Positions 6,722-58,102 of a DNA stretch of 64,000 nt are shown here, in pieces. Source of the stretch: Acidobacteriota bacterium (lineage in GTDB: Bacteria > Acidobacteriota > Thermoanaerobaculia > Gp7-AA8); assembly GCA_003223645.1 (NCBI GenBank), contig QHVT01000004.1, forward strand, positions 123,334-187,333, in the 5' to 3' direction. The notes under the pieces were generated by a model, which was not told the DNA's origin, searched no databases, and saw only the letters and a program-made list of their open reading frames with translations. Each line of letters starts with the position of its first letter. The first letter of the stretch is position 1. The position numbers and the translations under genes are program-made.

Positions 6722-6725
6722 GCAG

Positions 6726-6820
6726 GCTCAAAGGCGCATGGGCTCATAGGCGCATAGAGACTCTGAGCCTATGAGCCTATGAGCCCATGCGCCTATGAGC
6801 CTATGAGCCCATGCGCCTGA
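6726..6820. repeat. Tandem-arm inverted repeat, GAGCCTAT type
   Basis: The left arm uses complementary units (GGGCTCATAGGCGCAT). The right arm is about seven 8-bp units GAGCCTAT/GAGCCCAT/GCGCCTAT. It fills the convergent gap after the VWFA-like gene and overlaps the 3' end of pxpBC, whose last nine or so codons and stop are made of repeat units. Confidence 0.9.
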
Positions 6821-8115
6821 TTCACGACGAACCGCATCCGCTCGCCCGGCGCCAGCTGGGCGAGCTTCCACCGCTCGTCCGACAACACCGTCAGCACCTG
6901 CAGATAGCCGCCCGTGACGGGATGATCGGGACCCATCGCGACGAGACTGCCGTCCGGATGAAGCTGCACGGTTCCGCACTGCATGCCGAATGACTTGAGG
7001 TCCGCGGGGATCTTCACGTCGATCGGACGCATTGGCCGGAGACGAATGCCGACGCGATCGATCGACGGCGTGACTTCGCAATCGATCGTGCCGATCTCGA
7101 CGTCGTGCGGCCCGCGCATCGCGCGAATCACGCGATGGTCTTCGCGCGCGAACTCCGTGACGACGCCTTTGCGATTTCCCACCGCGAGATAACCGCGCAG
7201 CCCGTCCGTCACCCGTCCAAACGCGATCTCGTCTCCCGCGCGCACGCCTCGCACTTGATTGCACCACGCAACGACGCAGTCGCGGCGAAAGCGCAACCGC
7301 GGCCCCGACATCGCGCACTCGAGGAGCGGCGCATCGGACGGATTGCCGACCGCGCGATTCGCGAGCGCCGCCGCGGCGTCATCGAACGGCCCGCCGGGCG
7401 CGACGCCGCGATCGATGCGGCTCCAGTCCGGCGCGCCGACCAGCGTCGCCAGCGGAGCGGAGAGAACGTCCGCGTAGTCGAGCTGCAGCGGCGCCTTCTT
7501 CGGCGCCGGCGCGACGTGCACTTCGTCGACCGGCTCGATCACGATCTCATCGCCCGGCGCGATCGCATGCTCGACATTCGCGTCCGTCAGGCCGAGGAGA
7601 TTCCAACCGCCGGGAGTGTCGATCGGATAGAAGCCGGCAACCGAGCCCGCGATCGCAAACGACCCGCGCGCAACAGGACGCGACGTGGAACGGCGCGGCA
7701 TCGCCCACTCCGCAGGCCAGCCATCGAGGTAGGCGAAGCCGCCGCGGAAGCCGAGGTAGCGAGCCGTGAGCGTGATGCCGCGAACGCGCGAGAGAAATTG
7801 CTCGCGCGTTTGGTTGGTGCGGGCGAGAAACTCGTCTAAATCCGCGCCGGCGAATGCAACAGGCATTGTGGAGCGGCGGCCGCCCTCGGCCGCCGGATTC
7901 TCGCGAGAAATCGGCGGCCGAAGCGGCCGCCGCTCCACTAGTGTCTCGAAATTGGGCGTGCCCGCCCAAATCACATAAAGCGATGAATGCCCCGGAATGC
8001 ACGCCACCACACCCGGCGCTGCGCGAGCGCTCGCTGCGAACGCGTGCAACTCGGAAGCGGAAACGTCGCCGAGCTCGACCAACACCGCGCGGTCGCCCGC
8101 TGGAGCGAGATGCAT
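6793..8115 (-). CDS. pxpBC: Fused 5-oxoprolinase subunit B and C (PxpB-PxpC / KipI-KipA), with in-frame palindromic insertion
   Basis: Fusion of the two allophanate-hydrolase-like subunits that, with PxpA, cleave 5-oxoproline to glutamate using ATP. The PxpB part (about residues 1-215) starts GDRAVLVELGD and has RVRGITLTARYLGFRGGFAYL and GFYPIDTPGGWNLLG. The PxpC part (about 230-440) has SRIDRGVAPGGPFDDAAAALANR and GMQCGTVQLHPDGSLV. Residues 60-83 (VERRP...GRRST) are encoded by a family 2 palindrome at 7868-7938, inserted in frame between the N-terminal and main PxpB lobes. The last residues (GLIGS) come from another repeat. No pxpA is visible, so either it lies elsewhere or the protein has another amidolyase role. 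ATG 8115 begins a good PxpB N-terminus. Confidence 0.87.
   Translation of the reverse strand: MHLAPAGDRAVLVELGDVSASELHAFAASARAAPGVVACIPGHSSLYVIWAGTPNFETLVERRPLRPPISRENPAAEGGRRSTMPVAFAGADLDEFLARTNQTREQFLSRVRGITLTARYLGFRGGFAYLDGWPAEWAMPRRSTSRPVARGSFAIAGSVAGFYPIDTPGGWNLLGLTDANVEHAIAPGDEIVIEPVDEVHVAPAPKKAPLQLDYADVLSAPLATLVGAPDWSRIDRGVAPGGPFDDAAAALANRAVGNPSDAPLLECAMSGPRLRFRRDCVVAWCNQVRGVRAGDEIAFGRVTDGLRGYLAVGNRKGVVTEFAREDHRVIRAMRGPHDVEIGTIDCEVTPSIDRVGIRLRPMRPIDVKIPADLKSFGMQCGTVQLHPDGSLVAMGPDHPVTGGYLQVLTVLSDERWKLAQLAPGERMRFVVNQAHGLIGS
7868..7938. repeat. Palindromic element, family 2 (GTGGAGCGGCGGCCGC), inside pxpBC
   Basis: A 71-bp inverted repeat with ends GTGGAGCGGCGGCCGC and GCGGCCGCCGCTCCAC and a central TCGCGAGA palindrome. 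Other copies are at 37390-37460, 46418-46489 and 47589-47659. Here it lies within a coding sequence and is read through in frame. Confidence 0.95.
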
Positions 8116-14981: not shown

Positions 14982-15079
14982 ATGAAGGCAGAAGGCAGAA
15001 GGCAGAAAGCAGAAGTGAGAAAGGCAGCGCGACTCGCCACTTCTTACTTCTGCCTTCTGCCCTCTGCCTTCTGCCTTCA
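14982..15079. repeat. Tandem-arm inverted repeat, GCAGAAG type
   Basis: Begins ATGAAGGC, with arms of 7-bp GCAGAAG/GCAGAAA units and their complement, ending at GCCTTCA. It lies between divergent genes (deoxynucleoside kinase and M16 peptidase), so it sits where promoters should be and cannot be only a terminator. Confidence 0.93.
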
Positions 15080-15107: not shown

Positions 15108-16361
15108 ATGCTGTCCCTTGAGCAATACACGTTAGATAACGGGCTGAAGGTCGTCCTCAACGAGGACCATTCCGCCCCTCTCGTCGCGATCAATCTCTGG
15201 TACCACGTCGGCTCGAAGAATGAGCGGCCCGGCCGCACGGGGTTCGCGCATCTCTTCGAGCACATGCTGTTCTCCGGCTCGGAGCACGTCGGCAACAACG
15301 AGCATTTCCGCTACGTGCAGTCGGTCGGCGGTGTGCTCAACGGCACGACGTTCTTCGATCGCACGAATTACTTCGAGACGCTTCCCTCCAACTATCTCGC
15401 CCTCGGCCTCTGGCTCGAGTCCGACCGGATGGGCTTTTTTCTCCCCGCGCTGACGCAGGAGAAGCTCGACATCCAGCGGGAAGTCGTGAAGGAGGAGCGG
15501 CGCCAGCGCTACGACAACGTGCCGTACGGCACGGCGTTCGAGCGTTTACTGCGTCTCGGCTATCCGCCCGACTACTCGTATCACTGGCCGACGATCGGCT
15601 CGATGGAAGACCTCGGCGCCGCATCGCTCGACGACATCCGCGCGTTCTTCAGCACCTGGTATCGCCCCGACAACTGCACGCTGACGATCGTCGGCGACTT
15701 CTCGACGTCCGAGGCGAGGACGCTCGTCGAACAATACTTCGGCGACATCGAGCCGGGACGCTCGTTCCCGCCGTTCGATCTCCAGCGCACGCCCGCGTCC
15801 CACGAAGTGCGCGAGACGTTCGCGTCGCCCATCCAGCTGCCGCGCATCTATCGCCTCTATCACCTGCCGAAGATGGGCGAGGCGGAGTGGGTGCACGCGG
15901 ACTTGCTGACGACGATCGTCGCGTCGGACAAAGCGAGCCGTCTCGATCGCGCGCTCGTGCACGAACAGCAAATCGCGCAGGACGTGGCGATGTACGTGCT
16001 GCCGACCGAGTCGACCGGGATCGTGATGCTGCAGGCGACGGCGCGCGAAGGCGTGCAGATCGACGAGATCGAAGCAGCCATCGACGCCGAAGTCGCGCGC
16101 ATCGCGCTCGACGGCGTCACCGAAGACGAGCTCACGCGCGCGAAGAACCGCGCGGAGATCGAGTTTGCGCATCAGATCGAAACATTCGACGCGCGCGCGG
16201 ACCTGATTGGAATGATGTCGACGTACTTCGGCGATCCGACGATGGTCGATCGCTGGCTCGATCCGTATCGCGCCGCGTCCGCGGACAACCTCGCGCACAT
16301 CGCCAGGAAGTACCTGATTCCCGAGAATCGAGTGACTAGCCTGTTTGTACCGGAGATATGA
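15108..16361 (+). CDS. M16 zinc peptidase, catalytic subunit
   Basis: A 417-residue insulinase/pitrilysin-family (M16B-like) peptidase. The inverted zinc motif HLFEHM (HxxEH) is at about residues 48-52, within GRTGFAHLFEHMLFSGSEH. The downstream zinc Glu lies in the region VVKEERRQRYDN. The second half-domain (PRIYRLYHLPKMGEAEW, ADLLTTIVASDKASRL) is complete. No signal peptide follows ATG 15108. The next gene encodes the non-catalytic partner, so the pair probably forms a heterodimer, as in mitochondrial processing peptidase and Sphingomonas A1 enzymes. Confidence 0.93.
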   Translation: MLSLEQYTLDNGLKVVLNEDHSAPLVAINLWYHVGSKNERPGRTGFAHLFEHMLFSGSEHVGNNEHFRYVQSVGGVLNGTTFFDRTNYFETLPSNYLALGLWLESDRMGFFLPALTQEKLDIQREVVKEERRQRYDNVPYGTAFERLLRLGYPPDYSYHWPTIGSMEDLGAASLDDIRAFFSTWYRPDNCTLTIVGDFSTSEARTLVEQYFGDIEPGRSFPPFDLQRTPASHEVRETFASPIQLPRIYRLYHLPKMGEAEWVHADLLTTIVASDKASRLDRALVHEQQIAQDVAMYVLPTESTGIVMLQATAREGVQIDEIEAAIDAEVARIALDGVTEDELTRAKNRAEIEFAHQIETFDARADLIGMMSTYFGDPTMVDRWLDPYRAASADNLAHIARKYLIPENRVTSLFVPEI

Positions 16362-16446
16362 AGGCAGAAGGCAGAAGGCAGAAAGCAGAAGGAAGAAGTG
16401 ATTCGTTTCTCACTTCTGCTTTCTGCCTTCTGCCTTCTGCCTTCAT
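16358..16446. repeat. Tandem-arm inverted repeat, GCAGAAG type
   Basis: Perfect terminal octamers ATGAAGGC and GCCTTCAT enclose arms of GCAGAAG/GCAGAAA units. Its first four bases contain the TGA stop of the upstream peptidase gene. It separates the two M16 subunit genes. Confidence 0.95.
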
Positions 16447-17831: not shown

Positions 17832-17892
17832 CCGAGGAGAGCGGGCATCCTGCCTGCCTCCGGGGGGCGGGCGGGACGCCCGCTCTCCTCGG
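17832..17892. repeat. Palindromic element, family 1 (GAGAGCGGGC type)
   Basis: A 61-bp copy with ends CCGAGGAGAGCGGGC and GCCCGCTCTCCTCGG. It exactly fills the convergent gap between the M16 partner gene (stop at 17829) and the MbtH-domain gene (stop at 17893). Confidence 0.95.
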
Positions 17893-19517: not shown

Positions 19518-19520
19518 ACG

Positions 19521-19594
19521 ATGGCGGATGGCAGATGGCAGATGGCGAGCAACACGCTTCTGCCATTCGCCATCTGCCATCTGCCATCCGCCAT
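19521..19594. repeat. Tandem-arm inverted repeat, GGCAGAT type
   Basis: Ends ATGGCGGATGG and CCATCCGCCAT. Each arm holds three or four 7-bp units GGCAGAT or ATCTGCC around the spacer AACACGCTTC. It lies between divergent mtnA and gapA, 17 nt upstream of the gapA ribosome-binding region, so it is probably transcribed in the gapA leader. Relative at 2100-2170. Confidence 0.95.
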
Positions 19595-19617
19595 CTGTTT
19601 CCAGGAGGTCTGCTGCC

Positions 19618-21823: not shown

Positions 21824-21923
21824 CCCCTCACCCGGCACGCCGAGGAGAGCGGGCATCCTGCCCGCCTCCGGGGGGGCGGGCGGGACGCCCGGGGGAGAAG
21901 GTGCCCGAAGGGCGGATGAGGGG
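21824..21923. repeat. Nested palindrome: outer CCCCTCACCCGG element enclosing a family 1 element
   Basis: The outer arms CCCCTCACCCGG and CCGAAGGGCGGATGAGGGG (partly complementary) enclose a family 1 copy at 21841-21890, whose distal arm is cut short. The outer right end (GAGGGG) lies 4 nt before the ATG of the CYTH gene and forms its ribosome-binding site. A fuller version of the same nesting is at 56763-57033. Confidence 0.85.
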
Positions 21924-23599: not shown

Positions 23600-24103
23600 C
23601 CTCCAAGCCACCAAGCCTCCTGGCCTCCTGGTCCTCACCGCCTGGTAGATCGATTTAATGGACCATGGTCCCGATTTGATCGAGCATGGTGTTGATTTGA
23701 TGGACCACGGTGTTGATTTGATGAACCACGGTGTTGATTTGACGGACCATGGTGTTGATTTGATGGACCCGTAGTGATGATTTGATGGACCCACGTGTTG
23801 ACTGGATAGACCACTAGTGATGATTTGATGGACCACGGTGTTGATTTGACGGACCATGGTGTTGATTTGATGGACCAGTAGTGATGATTTGATGGACCCA
23901 CGTGTGGATTGGATAGACCACTAGTGATGATTTGATGGACCCACGTGTTGATTGGATATACCACTAGTGATGATTTGATGGCTCACGTGTTGATTGGATA
24001 GACCACCAGTCGTGATTTGATGGACCACGGTGTTAAATGGACCACGGTGTTAATTGAATAGACCATCAGTCGTGATTTGATGGAGGCTGGGAGGCTCGGA
24101 GGC
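23599..24103. repeat. Minisatellite of about twenty 21-22 bp units within inverted-repeat arms
   Basis: From about 23651 to 24084 the DNA is a tandem array of units such as GATTTGATGGACCACGGTG plus TT, alternating with variants ending CCACGTGTT and CCACTAGTGAT (often starting GATTGGATAGACC). In the second half the variants alternate to give a 43-bp higher-order period. The array is more AT-rich than its surroundings. It is framed by complementary arms: GCCTCCAAGCCACC... at 23599-23631 and GGAGGCTGGGAGGCTCGGAGG at 24082-24103. No spacers are unique, so it is not CRISPR. No convincing gene lies in this 529-bp stretch. Confidence 0.92.
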
Positions 24104-37389: not shown

Positions 37390-37460
37390 GTGGAGCGGCG
37401 GCCGCCCTCGGCCGCCGACCACTCGCGAGATCCCGGCGGCCGAAGCGGCCGCCGCTCCAC
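37390..37460. repeat. Palindromic element, family 2
   Basis: A 71-bp copy with central TCGCGAGA. It spans the whole convergent gap between the GT39-like gene (stop 37386) and clpB (stop 37461). Confidence 0.95.
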
Positions 37461-46417: not shown

Positions 46418-46489
46418 GTGGAGCGGCGGCCGCCCTCGGCCGCCGATTTCTTGCGAGAGGCCGGCGGCCGAGGGCGGCCGCCGCTCCAC
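46418..46489. repeat. Palindromic element, family 2
   Basis: A 72-bp copy between rlmN and the 112-residue orphan gene, with central TTGCGAGA (one change from the common TCGCGAGA). It fills nearly all of the 89-bp gap. Confidence 0.95.
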
Positions 46490-46492
46490 TAG

Positions 46493-46966: not shown

Positions 46967-47817
46967 CTACTTGTTCTCGCCCGAGACCGCTCTCTTCCAC
47001 GATTCGGACCAATACGCCAGGTACTTCCACTTGCCCCACTTCCGGTAGCGGCGGAGCATCGTCGCGTCGCTGACGCGGCGGCCGCCGTGATAGCGGTTGC
47101 GGACGAAGCTGCGGAACTCCGTGTCGACGGCGATGAAGTCGTGACGGCCGTCCATCGCCAGGAGGTGGGCCGCGCCGTACGGACCGATGCCGGGCAGGGA
47201 AAGATAGAACTTGTAGCGGTCTTCGGTGCTGGCGGGAAGCGTCGAGAGGTCGCACGATGCGAGCGCGTGGATCGACTTCGCGCGATAGCCGAGGCGGCAG
47301 TCGGACTGCAGCTCGTCGACGGTGAAGCGCGCGACTTCTTCCTGCGTCGGAAAGACGCCGCCGCATTTCGCGACGAGGAGCTCGATCATGCGGACGGTCT
47401 GTCGCCAGGTCGTGTTCGTCGTGGCGATGATCTTGACCGCGTCTTCCCACAACGTCGCGCCGCAGAGGAGACGTCCGAAGCCGGCGCGCGCGACCCACGC
47501 ATGCGCGGGCGAGTCGCGCGAGAGCTCGACGAACCCGGCAATGTCGACGTCGAGCTGGAACATACGCCTGATGCGCTCGCGAAGCTCTGTGGAGCGGCGG
47601 CCGCTTCGGCCGCCGGAATCTCGCGAGAGAGCGGCGGCCGAGAGCGGCCGCCGCTCCACAAGAAGCGCACCGTCAACGCACGAAATCTCCAGCTCCCCAT
47701 CCCGCTCGCGGCGTCGCAGCACGCCTTCTTCGCGCGACCAGCGGAACGGCGCGAGCCTGTACCAGCCATGCGACTCGACGGTCGTGGCGAAGACGAAGTC
47801 GTTGGGAACGGGAAAGT

Positions 47818-47947: not shown

Positions 47948-48117
47948 GAAAGCAGAAGGCAGAAGGCAGAACGCAGAACGCAGAACGCAGAACGCAGAAC
48001 GCAGAAATGAGAACCGAGAACTTCAGCAATCGTAACTTCTAACTCCTGCCTTCTGCTTTCTGCCTTCTGCCTTCTGCTTTCTGCCTTCTGCTTTCTGCCT
48101 TCTGCCTTCTGGCTTCA
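47948..48117. repeat. Long tandem-arm inverted repeat, GCAGAAG/GCAGAAC type
   Basis: A 170-bp element. The left arm holds 7-bp units GCAGAAG, then five GAACGCA units. The right arm is a longer run of CTTCTGC/TTTCTGC units ending GGCTTCAT. It sits between divergent tRNA-Cys and the HEAT-repeat gene. The largest member of this family in the window; the arms differ in length. Confidence 0.93.
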
Positions 48118-51892: not shown

Positions 51893-51984
51893 GCAGTTAC
51901 GCGGTCGCTCGGAACTGCGGAACTGCACACCGCGCAACCGCGCAACCGCGCAACCGCGCAACCGCGCAACCGCGCAACCGCGGA
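51893..51984. repeat. Tandem repeat of 8-bp CCGCGCAA units with inverted start
   Basis: Starts GCAGTTACGCGGTCGC, as in the element at 22497-22561, then at least seven perfect CCGCGCAA units. The left part is complementary to the right units (GTTACGCGG against CCGCGCAAC). It fills the convergent gap and ends at the stop of the V4R-like gene. Confidence 0.92.
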
Positions 51985-55486: not shown

Positions 55487-56659
55487 ATGGCCCGTTCCGT
55501 ACTGCCGTTCCCCGTTTCCCGCCGCAAGTTCCTTGCAAGCACCGCCGCGGCAACGGCGGGCCTGGCTCTCGCTCCGCTCGCTGCCGCCGCCGAGTCACCG
55601 GGCTGCAAACGCCTGCGCGAGATCAGCGAAGGATGGGACACCGCGGTGCGTCCCATGCTCGCCAGCCGCTACCATCGCCTGCAACACGTCTTCTTCCACT
55701 ACATCCGGAACAACTGGGACCGGCTGACCGCTGCGCAACAACGCGCGCTCACCGATCTGAAATGGGCTGCGCCGCGCGCCTCACTCTTCGCGCCGACGTG
55801 GAGCAAGCGCCCCAATCCCGACGACAACACCGTCGTCTGGGCGACGCACAACGGCTCGGGCATCGACTTTCTCTACTTCCATCGCTGGATGATCGCGATG
55901 GTCAACAAGCTGCTGAGCGACGCAGGAAAACCGACGCTCGCGGCGTGGTCCGACACCGATACGATCCCCGCGCCGAAACGCGGCTGTCCCGACGAATCGG
56001 TTCCCGACTTCACTCCGTGGTTCGAGGATCCGTCCGGCCCGCCGATTCGCGTCGAGTGGCTGCAGCTGCGCGTCAAAGAGATGAAGAGCGATTCGTTCTA
56101 CTGGGACCGGATGAACTGGTGGGGCATCGAGTTCCGCGACTTCGGCGCGCTGCGCAACATGACGCTGGGGGAGCTCGGATCGCGGCTCGAGTTCAGCGTT
56201 CACAATCAGATGCACATCCGCTGGTCCGCCTTTCCGTCGAACGGATCGCTCACCATCCGCGACGAGCCCGACTTCCGCGCAAAGTGGGACGACCCCGGCT
56301 ACGACACACTGTTCGACGAATACTCGTCGCACGTCACCCCGATCTTCTTCCGCCTCCACAAATGGATCGACAACCGCATCGAGGATTGGGCCGAGGCGCA
56401 GCGAGAGCGCTTGACGCGCTACGACACCGGCCTGGGATTCGACTGGTTCAAAGGATCATCGCAGTGGATCGAAGTCGACCAGCCATGGTCCAGTCCGTAC
56501 GGCATGCACCATCCGACTCCCGAGGAGCAGAAGCTCCGCATCGCGACGATGGAAAAGATCGGACCGATCCTCTTCCCGCCGAAGGCCCTCGGAAAACGCA
56601 CGCCGGAGGAACAGGAACAGGACGAGAGACGCATCCTGAGCATTCGCGACCTGGCGTAA
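55487..56659 (+). CDS. Tat-exported tyrosinase-like type 3 copper protein
   Basis: 390 residues with a twin-arginine signal (SRRKFLASTAAATAG). A possible CuA site: His in LQHVFFHYIRNNW (66/70), HNGSGIDFLYFHRWM (His121, His131). A possible CuB site: VHNQMHIRW (His240, His244) and FFRLHKWIDNRIEDW (His290). This matches the tyrosinase/polyphenol-oxidase pattern, although divergent. Tat export fits a folded, cofactor-bearing enzyme. AGGAGGAGAG precedes the ATG. Third gene of the copper operon; the partner oxidases suggest oxidation of phenolics or polymer precursors outside the cell. Confidence 0.82.
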   Translation: MARSVLPFPVSRRKFLASTAAATAGLALAPLAAAAESPGCKRLREISEGWDTAVRPMLASRYHRLQHVFFHYIRNNWDRLTAAQQRALTDLKWAAPRASLFAPTWSKRPNPDDNTVVWATHNGSGIDFLYFHRWMIAMVNKLLSDAGKPTLAAWSDTDTIPAPKRGCPDESVPDFTPWFEDPSGPPIRVEWLQLRVKEMKSDSFYWDRMNWWGIEFRDFGALRNMTLGELGSRLEFSVHNQMHIRWSAFPSNGSLTIRDEPDFRAKWDDPGYDTLFDEYSSHVTPIFFRLHKWIDNRIEDWAEAQRERLTRYDTGLGFDWFKGSSQWIEVDQPWSSPYGMHHPTPEEQKLRIATMEKIGPILFPPKALGKRTPEEQEQDERRILSIRDLA

Positions 56660-56762
56660 AGGTCAGAGATTCTTCGCTACCAGCGACCACCGGATGAACA
56701 ACGCCGATGGTCCGGTTTGGGGGAGATTCAGTGGCAGGCGCTATCCTGCATTTCTCACACCT

Positions 56763-57033
56763 TGCGTCATCTTGAGCGGAGGCACTGCGCGATGCGCATT
56801 TGTCGAGCAAAATGACAGCCCCTCACCCGGCGCTTCGCGCCACCCTCTCCCGCAAGGAGGAGAGCGGGCATCCTGCCCGCCTCCCGGGGGGCGGGCGGGA
56901 CGCCCGCTCTCCTCCTTGCGGGGGTGGCCGAAGGCCGGATGGGGGCTGTCATTAGAAGTCGCGTAGACGGCGAAAGATCTCAATCTACGTAACCTGAGAT
57001 CCTTCGCCGCGCTTCGCCGGCTCAGGATGACGT
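56763..57033. repeat. Three-layer nested palindrome
   Basis: Outer layer: GCGTCATCTTGAGCGG near 56764 against CCGGCTCAGGATGACG near 57016-57031. Middle layer: GACAGCCCCTCACCCGGC (56815) with CCACCCTCTCCCGCAAGG, against CCTTGCGGGGGTGG...CCGGATGGGGGCTGTC (to 56950). Inner layer: a family 1 copy (56862-56915). The 489-bp convergent gap between the tyrosinase-like gene and chrB holds nothing else I can recognise. Confidence 0.88.
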
Positions 57034-57148
57034 TTGAGACTTGCTCCACGCCTTTTCAGAAGCTGTGAGAAATGCGCGCTATGAGCGGAGCGCGTCCCTG
57101 TCGCTTCGCCCATCTGATCGCGTGTGGCGGCGCAACTGCCCGCCGACG

Positions 57149-58102
57149 TCAGCCTTTGCGAGCGCGTTTGGTCCGGCTGCCGAGGGCCTCGTGGAGATCG
57201 TCGAAGATGACCAGCGCGCGCTCGATGCGCTCCTCGTCGCTCTCGGTGCGAGACATCAAGCCGTCGAGCATCATGCGTACGCCGGCGGCTTCGGCACGTC
57301 CGTACTTGCCGTCCTTGAGGTCGAGGTCGTGCACGATCTCCGCGATCGCGCGCACGCCCTTATCCGGCAATCCCACGCGGCCGATCAGCGTCTCGAACGT
57401 GCAGCGGTCTTCTTCGTGTGTGAAATCGCCGCCGACCATATCGAAGCGCAGCTCGCCGTCTTTGTTCGGGGCGGCGGGATCGGCGAAGCGGAATCGCGCT
57501 TTCGGATCGACGAAGCGGCGGATGAACCATGCCGACGCCATCCGATCGATCTTCACGCCGGGACGTGTAACCCACGTCTTTCCTCGCAGCTCCGGCTTTG
57601 TCTTCAGCATCCGAGTCTCCTCCTTCCGGTCCTTCTGCAGGCGGGTTTCGATCGCGGCCAGCGCTTCTTCGGCCGCCGCGCGCCGGTCGGCATCGAAGAA
57701 GTCGATCCTCCGGACCTCCTCGAGGCGGCGCAGCAGGCGTCCGTGTGCCGTCGCAAGCTCGGCCACCGCGGCCGCGCTTCGCGCTGCTTTCATCGCGGCG
57801 TGCGCGTCTGCGGCGATCGTGTCGTAGTCGGTGTTCCGCGCTTCGCGGAACTGTGCCACGGCGGCATCGCTCGCATCGCCATCGACGAAGTCACCGGCAA
57901 ACAGATGCGCGTCGCCGCCGCCGGTCACGATCTCCTGCGCAATCCATTGCAGGTCTTCCAGCGCATCGGAGCCCTGCGGCAGGAGGTAGACGGAGTTCTT
58001 CACCGCCACCGCGCCGACTTCGGCGAGCCGTTGACGCATCTTCGCGCGCAGATAAAGCGGACGGGGAGGGATGCGATGCACGAGAATCAGCCAGCGCGGC
58101 AC
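57149..58102 (-). CDS. chrB: ChrB chromate-resistance protein
   Basis: A 317-residue protein with both known parts of ChrB: an N-terminal half (about 1-150, WLILVHRIPPRPLYLRAKMRQRL and LEDLQWIAQEIVTGGG) and the C-terminal ChrB domain (TWVTRPGVKIDRMASAWFIRRFVDP, FTHEEDRCTFETLI). In other bacteria ChrB is a chromate-sensing regulator of chrA. The basic C-terminus (SRTKRARKG) is consistent with nucleic-acid contact. It is divergent from the ArsC-like/chrA genes, with an 11-bp inverted repeat between. Confidence 0.93.
   Translation of the reverse strand: MPRWLILVHRIPPRPLYLRAKMRQRLAEVGAVAVKNSVYLLPQGSDALEDLQWIAQEIVTGGGDAHLFAGDFVDGDASDAAVAQFREARNTDYDTIAADAHAAMKAARSAAAVAELATAHGRLLRRLEEVRRIDFFDADRRAAAEEALAAIETRLQKDRKEETRMLKTKPELRGKTWVTRPGVKIDRMASAWFIRRFVDPKARFRFADPAAPNKDGELRFDMVGGDFTHEEDRCTFETLIGRVGLPDKGVRAIAEIVHDLDLKDGKYGRAEAAGVRMMLDGLMSRTESDEERIERALVIFDDLHEALGSRTKRARKG

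Follow-up and report, generated by a model that had tools for sequence, protein, structure and literature searches.

Four stacked palindromes between two convergent genes

The window, which is the whole stretch of 64,000 nt of DNA that was analyzed, corresponds to C29:123334-187333 in a draft genome of 6.38 Mb and 51 contigs. Within it, a putative tyrosinase-like reading frame (55487-56659, plus strand), for which a Pfam search gave no match, and a ChrB gene (57149-58102, minus strand; Pfam ChrB_C) converge, and in the gap between them four distinct mobile palindromes are stacked inside about 340 bases. These are designated, from the outermost inward, T1, A, B, and C, and each is a multi-copy family within the host genome. 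The three inner layers were found at the coordinates that an earlier note on this DNA had given for them, while the fourth, outermost layer, T1, had been overlooked. When folded as single-stranded DNA, 56763-57034 reaches −112 kcal/mol, compared with −58.7 ± 3.9 kcal/mol for 200 shuffled sequences (z = −13.8), and a BLAST search of the host's own genome with the composite as query gave 73 matches.

Read from the left, the nest begins with a putative 4-bp target duplication of T1, CTAT (56741-56744), located by sequence, with CTAA/CTAA, TTAG/TTAG, and TTAA/TTAA at this offset in other T1 copies, followed by the left terminal part of T1, CCTGCATTTCTCACACCTTGC (56745-56765; this and all following layers are on the plus strand). 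The 5′ end of A, GTCATCTTGAGC (56766-56777), opens a 51-nt GTCAT..ATGAC block (56766-56816), the left edge of the A/B composite, which is common to nine copies in the genome. The CACCC-side arm of B, CCCCTCACCCGGCGCTTCGCGCCACCCTCTCCCGCAAG, occupies 56819-56856, with CCCCTCACCC starting at 56819, and is followed by C, the "family 1" of the earlier note, a REPIN-like 58-nt palindrome of two hairpins (56857-56914), and then by the CATCC-side arm of B (56915-56945); by comparison with spacer-bearing B copies, the central spacer of B is absent here. The next segment, CTGTCATTAGAAG (56946-56958), is the invariant right-hand junction of B with A; every one of the nine composites has it, as do two loci of another genus. 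The remainder of A (56959-57031), ending with GCTCAGGATGAC at 57031, is about 95-97% identical to T1+A copies that lack B. The right terminal part of T1, ending in TGTGAGAAATGCGCG (57032-57078), and a putative right target duplication, CTAT (57079-57082, from sequence), complete the arrangement.

The reduced version reported earlier at 21824-21923 (plus strand) is also present, with B arms flanking a C copy that has lost its 3′ end and with neither A nor a shell. Two further C copies lie in the window, one with degenerate B-like flanks (482-537) and one with no recognizable B (17833-17891). The earlier claim that the layers are separate repeat families is supported, since A, B, and C each occur elsewhere in the genome in less nested form; the absence of free-standing outer layers, which was to count against the claim, was thus not what was found.

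T1 is a MITE-like shell

T1 spans 56745-57078 and has terminal repeats GCATTTCTCACA/TGTGAGAAATGC between the matching CTAT tetranucleotides. Its inverted repeat is 16 nt long (GCATTTCTCACACCTT at 56748-56763, with its partner at 57060-57075; the arms are 94% matched), and CTAT is found on both sides three bases beyond the core of this repeat. T1 ends occur at about 11 other loci, usually 145-148 nt apart, and these copies, eight of them paired and several one-ended, all have A inside, such that none of the T1 copies found is without A. Exact 4-bp repeats at the T1 offset are present in four of about ten copies (CTAT, CTAA, TTAG, and TTAA), where about 0.2 would be expected by chance from a hand count of left versus right tetranucleotides across different copies. 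Two features of a MITE, terminal inverted repeats and target site duplication, are thus found in T1, which is a MITE-like shell. IS5-type enzymes prefer 4-bp targets of this YTAR-like type. Judged from its target duplications, T1 is probably moved in trans by a cut-and-paste transposase, presumably a DDE enzyme, and no pair of T1 ends at IS length was among the matches listed in a terminal inverted repeat scan of the draft assembly (two mismatches at most). T1 resembles MITEs with 3-4 bp target duplications (MITE review, PMC10969869) in its terminal repeats of about 15 nt, its size of about 148 nt, and its YTAR-like 4-bp duplications, but it differs in that its interior is another repeat family and in that no parent IS was located in the draft assembly.

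Further shells around A were seen at C21:474791, C21:483162, C44:208039, C4:18461, and C29:299912. The other shell families are T2 (GTACTNCATTCGC, with TAA-like 3-bp flanks), T3 (GAACCTCTGAACAAGT), and T4 (GCCTGTGAAAAAAT), and three of the A/B composites are in T4-like shells and one is in T2. No empty T1-T4 shell was seen.

A and B form a unit with fixed junctions

A is a REP-like element, GTCATCYTGAGC..GCTCAGGATGAC, that starts (C)GTCAT and has 203 exact end sites in the genome. It occurs without B within T1 shells (loci L012-L023) and also elsewhere, for example at C21:44266, and it occurs with B at nine loci, the window and eight others. Junction mapping, as the earlier note had proposed, gave identical A/B junctions in all nine copies (GTCATCYTGA^GC on the left and GTCATTAGAA^GC on the right); the left 90 nt are nearly identical among them and the A bodies further right diverge. 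In another genus, one locus has the same A/B arrangement and a second has the right half of it. B is not located at the tip of A, where it had been placed, but enters on the loop side of the first small hairpin of A, about 10-12 nt in from A's 5′ base, which leaves nearly the whole A palindrome on B's right.

Since nine copies share identical junctions and the same arrangement recurs in another genus, A-with-B is an established unit that spreads whole. The T1+A shell probably preceded B at the window locus, because about 11 other T1+A copies lack B. As A-with-B and B-with-C would move ready-made, however, the nesting order gives the order in which the modules were assembled and not necessarily a series of separate insertions at this site. 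The earlier reading of nesting as relative age is thus supported in part.

With genes called by a simple composition rule, A is found in convergent versus divergent gaps at a ratio of 17:5, the two gap classes being equal in DNA. This bias away from divergent (promoter) gaps is compatible with selection against harm rather than with A having a job.

C inside B and palindromes inside palindromes

B is a double-hairpin repeat, CCCCTCAYCC, that also stands without A, both with and without C. C starts GGAGAG, has 108 exact half sites genome-wide, and also stands alone, often in genes. The 61 whole C copies that were extracted came from 1.70 Mb of the genome, a sample partly centered on C sites and therefore usable for ratios and not for density. 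Twenty-two of the 61 lie within B arms. The C subtypes are defined by the two arms, and subtype AT/GT accounts for 21 of the 22 copies in B versus 9 of the 39 elsewhere (Fisher p = 2e-8), while the orientation of C relative to B is 18:2 among the 20 scorable copies (p = 4e-4). The B/C junction sequences vary, and by more than a single unmodified ancestor would yield. One or a few nestings of C in B followed by copying of B+C would explain both the subtype and the orientation skew, which could also result if one C subtype had a built-in preference and always entered on the same strand. The excess of C in B does not clearly indicate a standing preference for palindrome tips. When the flanks of all C copies together were tested for inverted pairing, p was 0.0008, but this result was discarded because the test mixed B-nested copies with the others.

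When a flank-pairing score was calculated for each A, C, and R element (R is a further repeat family, see below) with the B-nested copies set aside, A was inside another palindrome in 9 of 38 cases versus about 1.4 expected, and strongly pairing flanks were found for 3 of 39 C copies outside B (0.08 expected) and for 3 of 62 R copies (0.12 expected). The palindrome-nested A copies involve several outer shell families (T1 to T4) and a 7-bp repeat palindrome. These data support a mild general tendency of palindromes to be found within palindromes.

C inside genes, empty sites, and distribution

Among C copies with both flanks clearly coding on the same strand, 17 are in frame and two are frame-shifted. 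Genes that carry C include those for PurH, histidinol dehydrogenase, pyruvate phosphate dikinase, an aminotransferase, a penicillin-binding protein, and NRPS adenylation domains, and examples of in-frame copies are those in purH (L142:9059-10624; C26:31886), in a pyruvate phosphate dikinase-type gene (L144:10699-12333; C29:397201), and in hisD (L141:4122-5324; C25:20080). C reads open on either strand in the frames used and gives peptides such as EESGRPARPREAGRMPALL. Some B copies are inside genes as well. The alignment of PurH with its relatives breaks at residues 271-295, and the insert is missing in the ten family relatives read at this site, which have four residues there versus 31 in the host. 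C in purH is flanked by 9-bp inverted arms, GTGGTGCGC/GCGCACCAC, also missing in the ten relatives, and these arms may be another shell or a product of the insertion.

In a same-genus species, empty sites correspond to a pair of C copies in a gene at C21:669493 and to the A element at C21:44266. A clean empty site was sought for a copy in a histidine kinase gene and none was obtained, and the stretch read from the same-genus species contained no orthologous tyrosinase/ChrB gap, the flanking genes not being syntenic. Counts of end motifs in 858 kb of the host versus 848 kb of the same-genus species were 36 versus 0 for A, 14 versus 1 for B, 23 versus 0 for C, and 4 versus 0 for T1. Among 60 genomes, C is present in only four, and A shows bursts in some and is nearly absent from others. 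G021, a 3.1-Mb genome of the same class, has 371 exact GTCATCCTGAGC A sites and no Y1 transposase match.

Candidate mobilizing enzymes

The host genome encodes a single Y1/RAYT-type transposase (L031:1300-2200; G000:C4:53122-53433), and it is bounded by copies of family R (GTGGAGCGGC; GTGGAGCGGCGCCCGC.. palindrome), one upstream and three downstream. Hence the sole Y1 enzyme of the genome adjoins R, and no cognate RAYT flanked by A or C was found, nor was any enzyme linked to A, B, C, or T1 in the assembly. The abundance of A correlates with Y1 counts over all 60 genomes (Spearman rho = 0.41) but not within the family (rho = −0.02), and RAYT was not favored as the mobilizer of A since there is no such tracking within the family; the class-wide correlation probably reflects relatedness. 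Abutting direct repeats beside A, C, and R do not exceed chance, and the target duplications that the earlier note had proposed to map were thus found, as 4-bp repeats, at T1 and not at A or C. The absence of target duplication at A and C fits single-strand or replication-based copying, and we infer that A, B, and C are copied by one of these routes, the former being RAYT-like; RAYT movement of the three is possible. R itself has 88 end motifs in 858 kb and four pairs within the window (7868-7938, 37390-37460, 46418-46490, and 47589-47660), and the copy at 46418-46490 (C29:169751) is cleanly missing from its site in the same-genus species.

How the nest arose

The nest is likely a composite of non-autonomous mobile palindromes that was built stepwise and copied as units. 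In this scheme the MITE-like T1, with its 4-bp target duplications, would carry the REP-like A, A would carry the double-hairpin B in its left arm, and one of the hairpin loops of B would carry the REPIN-like C. Composites would arise stepwise as one palindrome lands in or next to another, and each new composite would then be copied elsewhere as one unit, such that the same junctions recur. Several parts of this are direct observations, namely the multi-copy families at each level, the recurring junctions, the presence and absence between species, and the T1 target duplications. Most likely, the host merely tolerates these elements, which would be selfish DNA.

It is possible, though we consider it less than even, that hairpin tips are instead a standing preferred target and that the nests record many independent insertions into extruded or single-stranded palindrome tips, as the earlier note had proposed. 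The small but significant excess of A, C, and R at the centers of other palindromes, which for A extends over several shell families and a 7-bp repeat palindrome, and the varied B/C junctions are in keeping with this, and that much of the tip claim stands. The excess of C in B, however, is one subtype in one orientation and is confounded by unit copying, A and B join at one fixed point, in the arm of A near its base and not at the tip, and T1-T4, never seen empty, may have spread already holding A. An excess of palindromes in palindromes proves tip preference only once copying of nested units is excluded. A related and rather doubtful suggestion is that a hairpin-specific route, by single-strand transposition or stalled-fork copying, keeps adding palindromes at centers, with copies of the results being made; if true, this would define a recursive class of mobile DNA that gains one layer after another and includes unrelated repeat families.

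The 9-bp arms around C in purH, lacking in the ten relatives, could also mean that outer arms are created by the insertion itself, with fold-back synthesis copying adjacent host DNA in inverted form, in which case the nesting would be partly illusory. This is improbable, as purH is a single case whose arms are equally explicable as another shell arriving with C, and the arms of A, B, and T1 are common to many loci and so are mobile rather than local host sequence. It is very improbable that the nest is a functional RNA or DNA device that has been kept, such as a bidirectional terminator for the tyrosinase-like and ChrB genes that converge on it. Its strong fold, its position in a convergent gap, and the avoidance of divergent gaps by A would suit such a role, but C and some B copies are inside genes, copies vary in their layers, the families are all but absent from the same-genus species, and Rfam gave no family above its gathering score and only GC-rich hairpin look-alikes, the miRNA hairpin matches being far below their gathering scores. 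Even for a 51-contig draft, assembly error or chance similarity has a negligible probability, given identical junctions on different contigs and in another genus and a fold with z = −13.8.

Relation to known repeats

Many paired inverted hairpin copies, the mark of REP/REPIN sequences, are found for both A and C. Like the REP/REPIN and BIME elements of Escherichia and Pseudomonas (PMC3116915), A, B, and C consist of short hairpins that form inverted pairs and occur in many copies, with no target duplication seen at A and C, but they differ in being stacked, inside a target-duplicating shell, with no RAYT beside them. In 2013, REP dimers were reported to occur regularly within larger palindromes, as in A. 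variabilis GTAG-15, T. roseum GTAG-23, and H. neapolitanus CGTC-1, and in two of these three cases the outer palindrome was never empty (PMC3733652). The nest belongs with these cases, sharing with them a palindrome built around a REP-like dimer and an outer palindrome that is never found empty, and is a deep example of known repetitive DNA and not a new kind. It goes beyond them in its depth of up to four layers, in the several shell families that surround one core, and in the evidence for whole-unit copying of nested palindromes, and it also adds REP-like cores enclosed by a MITE shell that has target duplications. In-frame REPs in genes were reported in the same study (PMC3733652), and C shares with these and with the Rickettsia palindromic elements (PMC10969869) in-frame insertion into genes, adding about 19 codons to ordinary metabolic genes, although C is 53-58 nt versus about 150 bp for the Rickettsia elements. 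A literature search by motif letters matched only primers. Cyanobacterial small dispersed repeats provide another example of short repeats nested in each other.

Fixed junctions at several levels allow both the assembly order and the copying unit to be read from one genome, which is rare for REP-like repeats. The conserved enzymes with C in frame, for their part, provide a natural set of examples in which an extra stretch of about 19 codons has been tolerated.

Other repeats in the window

The window also contains palindromes of tandem 7-bp units (GCAGAAG/CTTCTGC) with arms of up to 76 nt, at 2415-2545, 14982-15079, 16358-16446, and 47948-48116, the last of which resembles many places in the same-genus species; elsewhere in the host genome, C and A copies are centered in such palindromes (C5:200392 and C21:160116). 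At 19520-19595 and 6724-6802, short tandem units (GATGGCAGATGGC; AGGCTCAAAGGCGCATGGGCTCATAGG) make up palindromes that are perfect or nearly so. A tandem array of about nine copies of a unit of about 21 bp (TCCATCAAATCA..) occupies 23688-24085, and an 8-bp tandem repeat, ACCGCGCA, is found at 51929-51980. The motif of this repeat recurs, with 46 matches to GCGCAACCGC in 858 kb of the host and, in the same-genus species, 14 in 848 kb.
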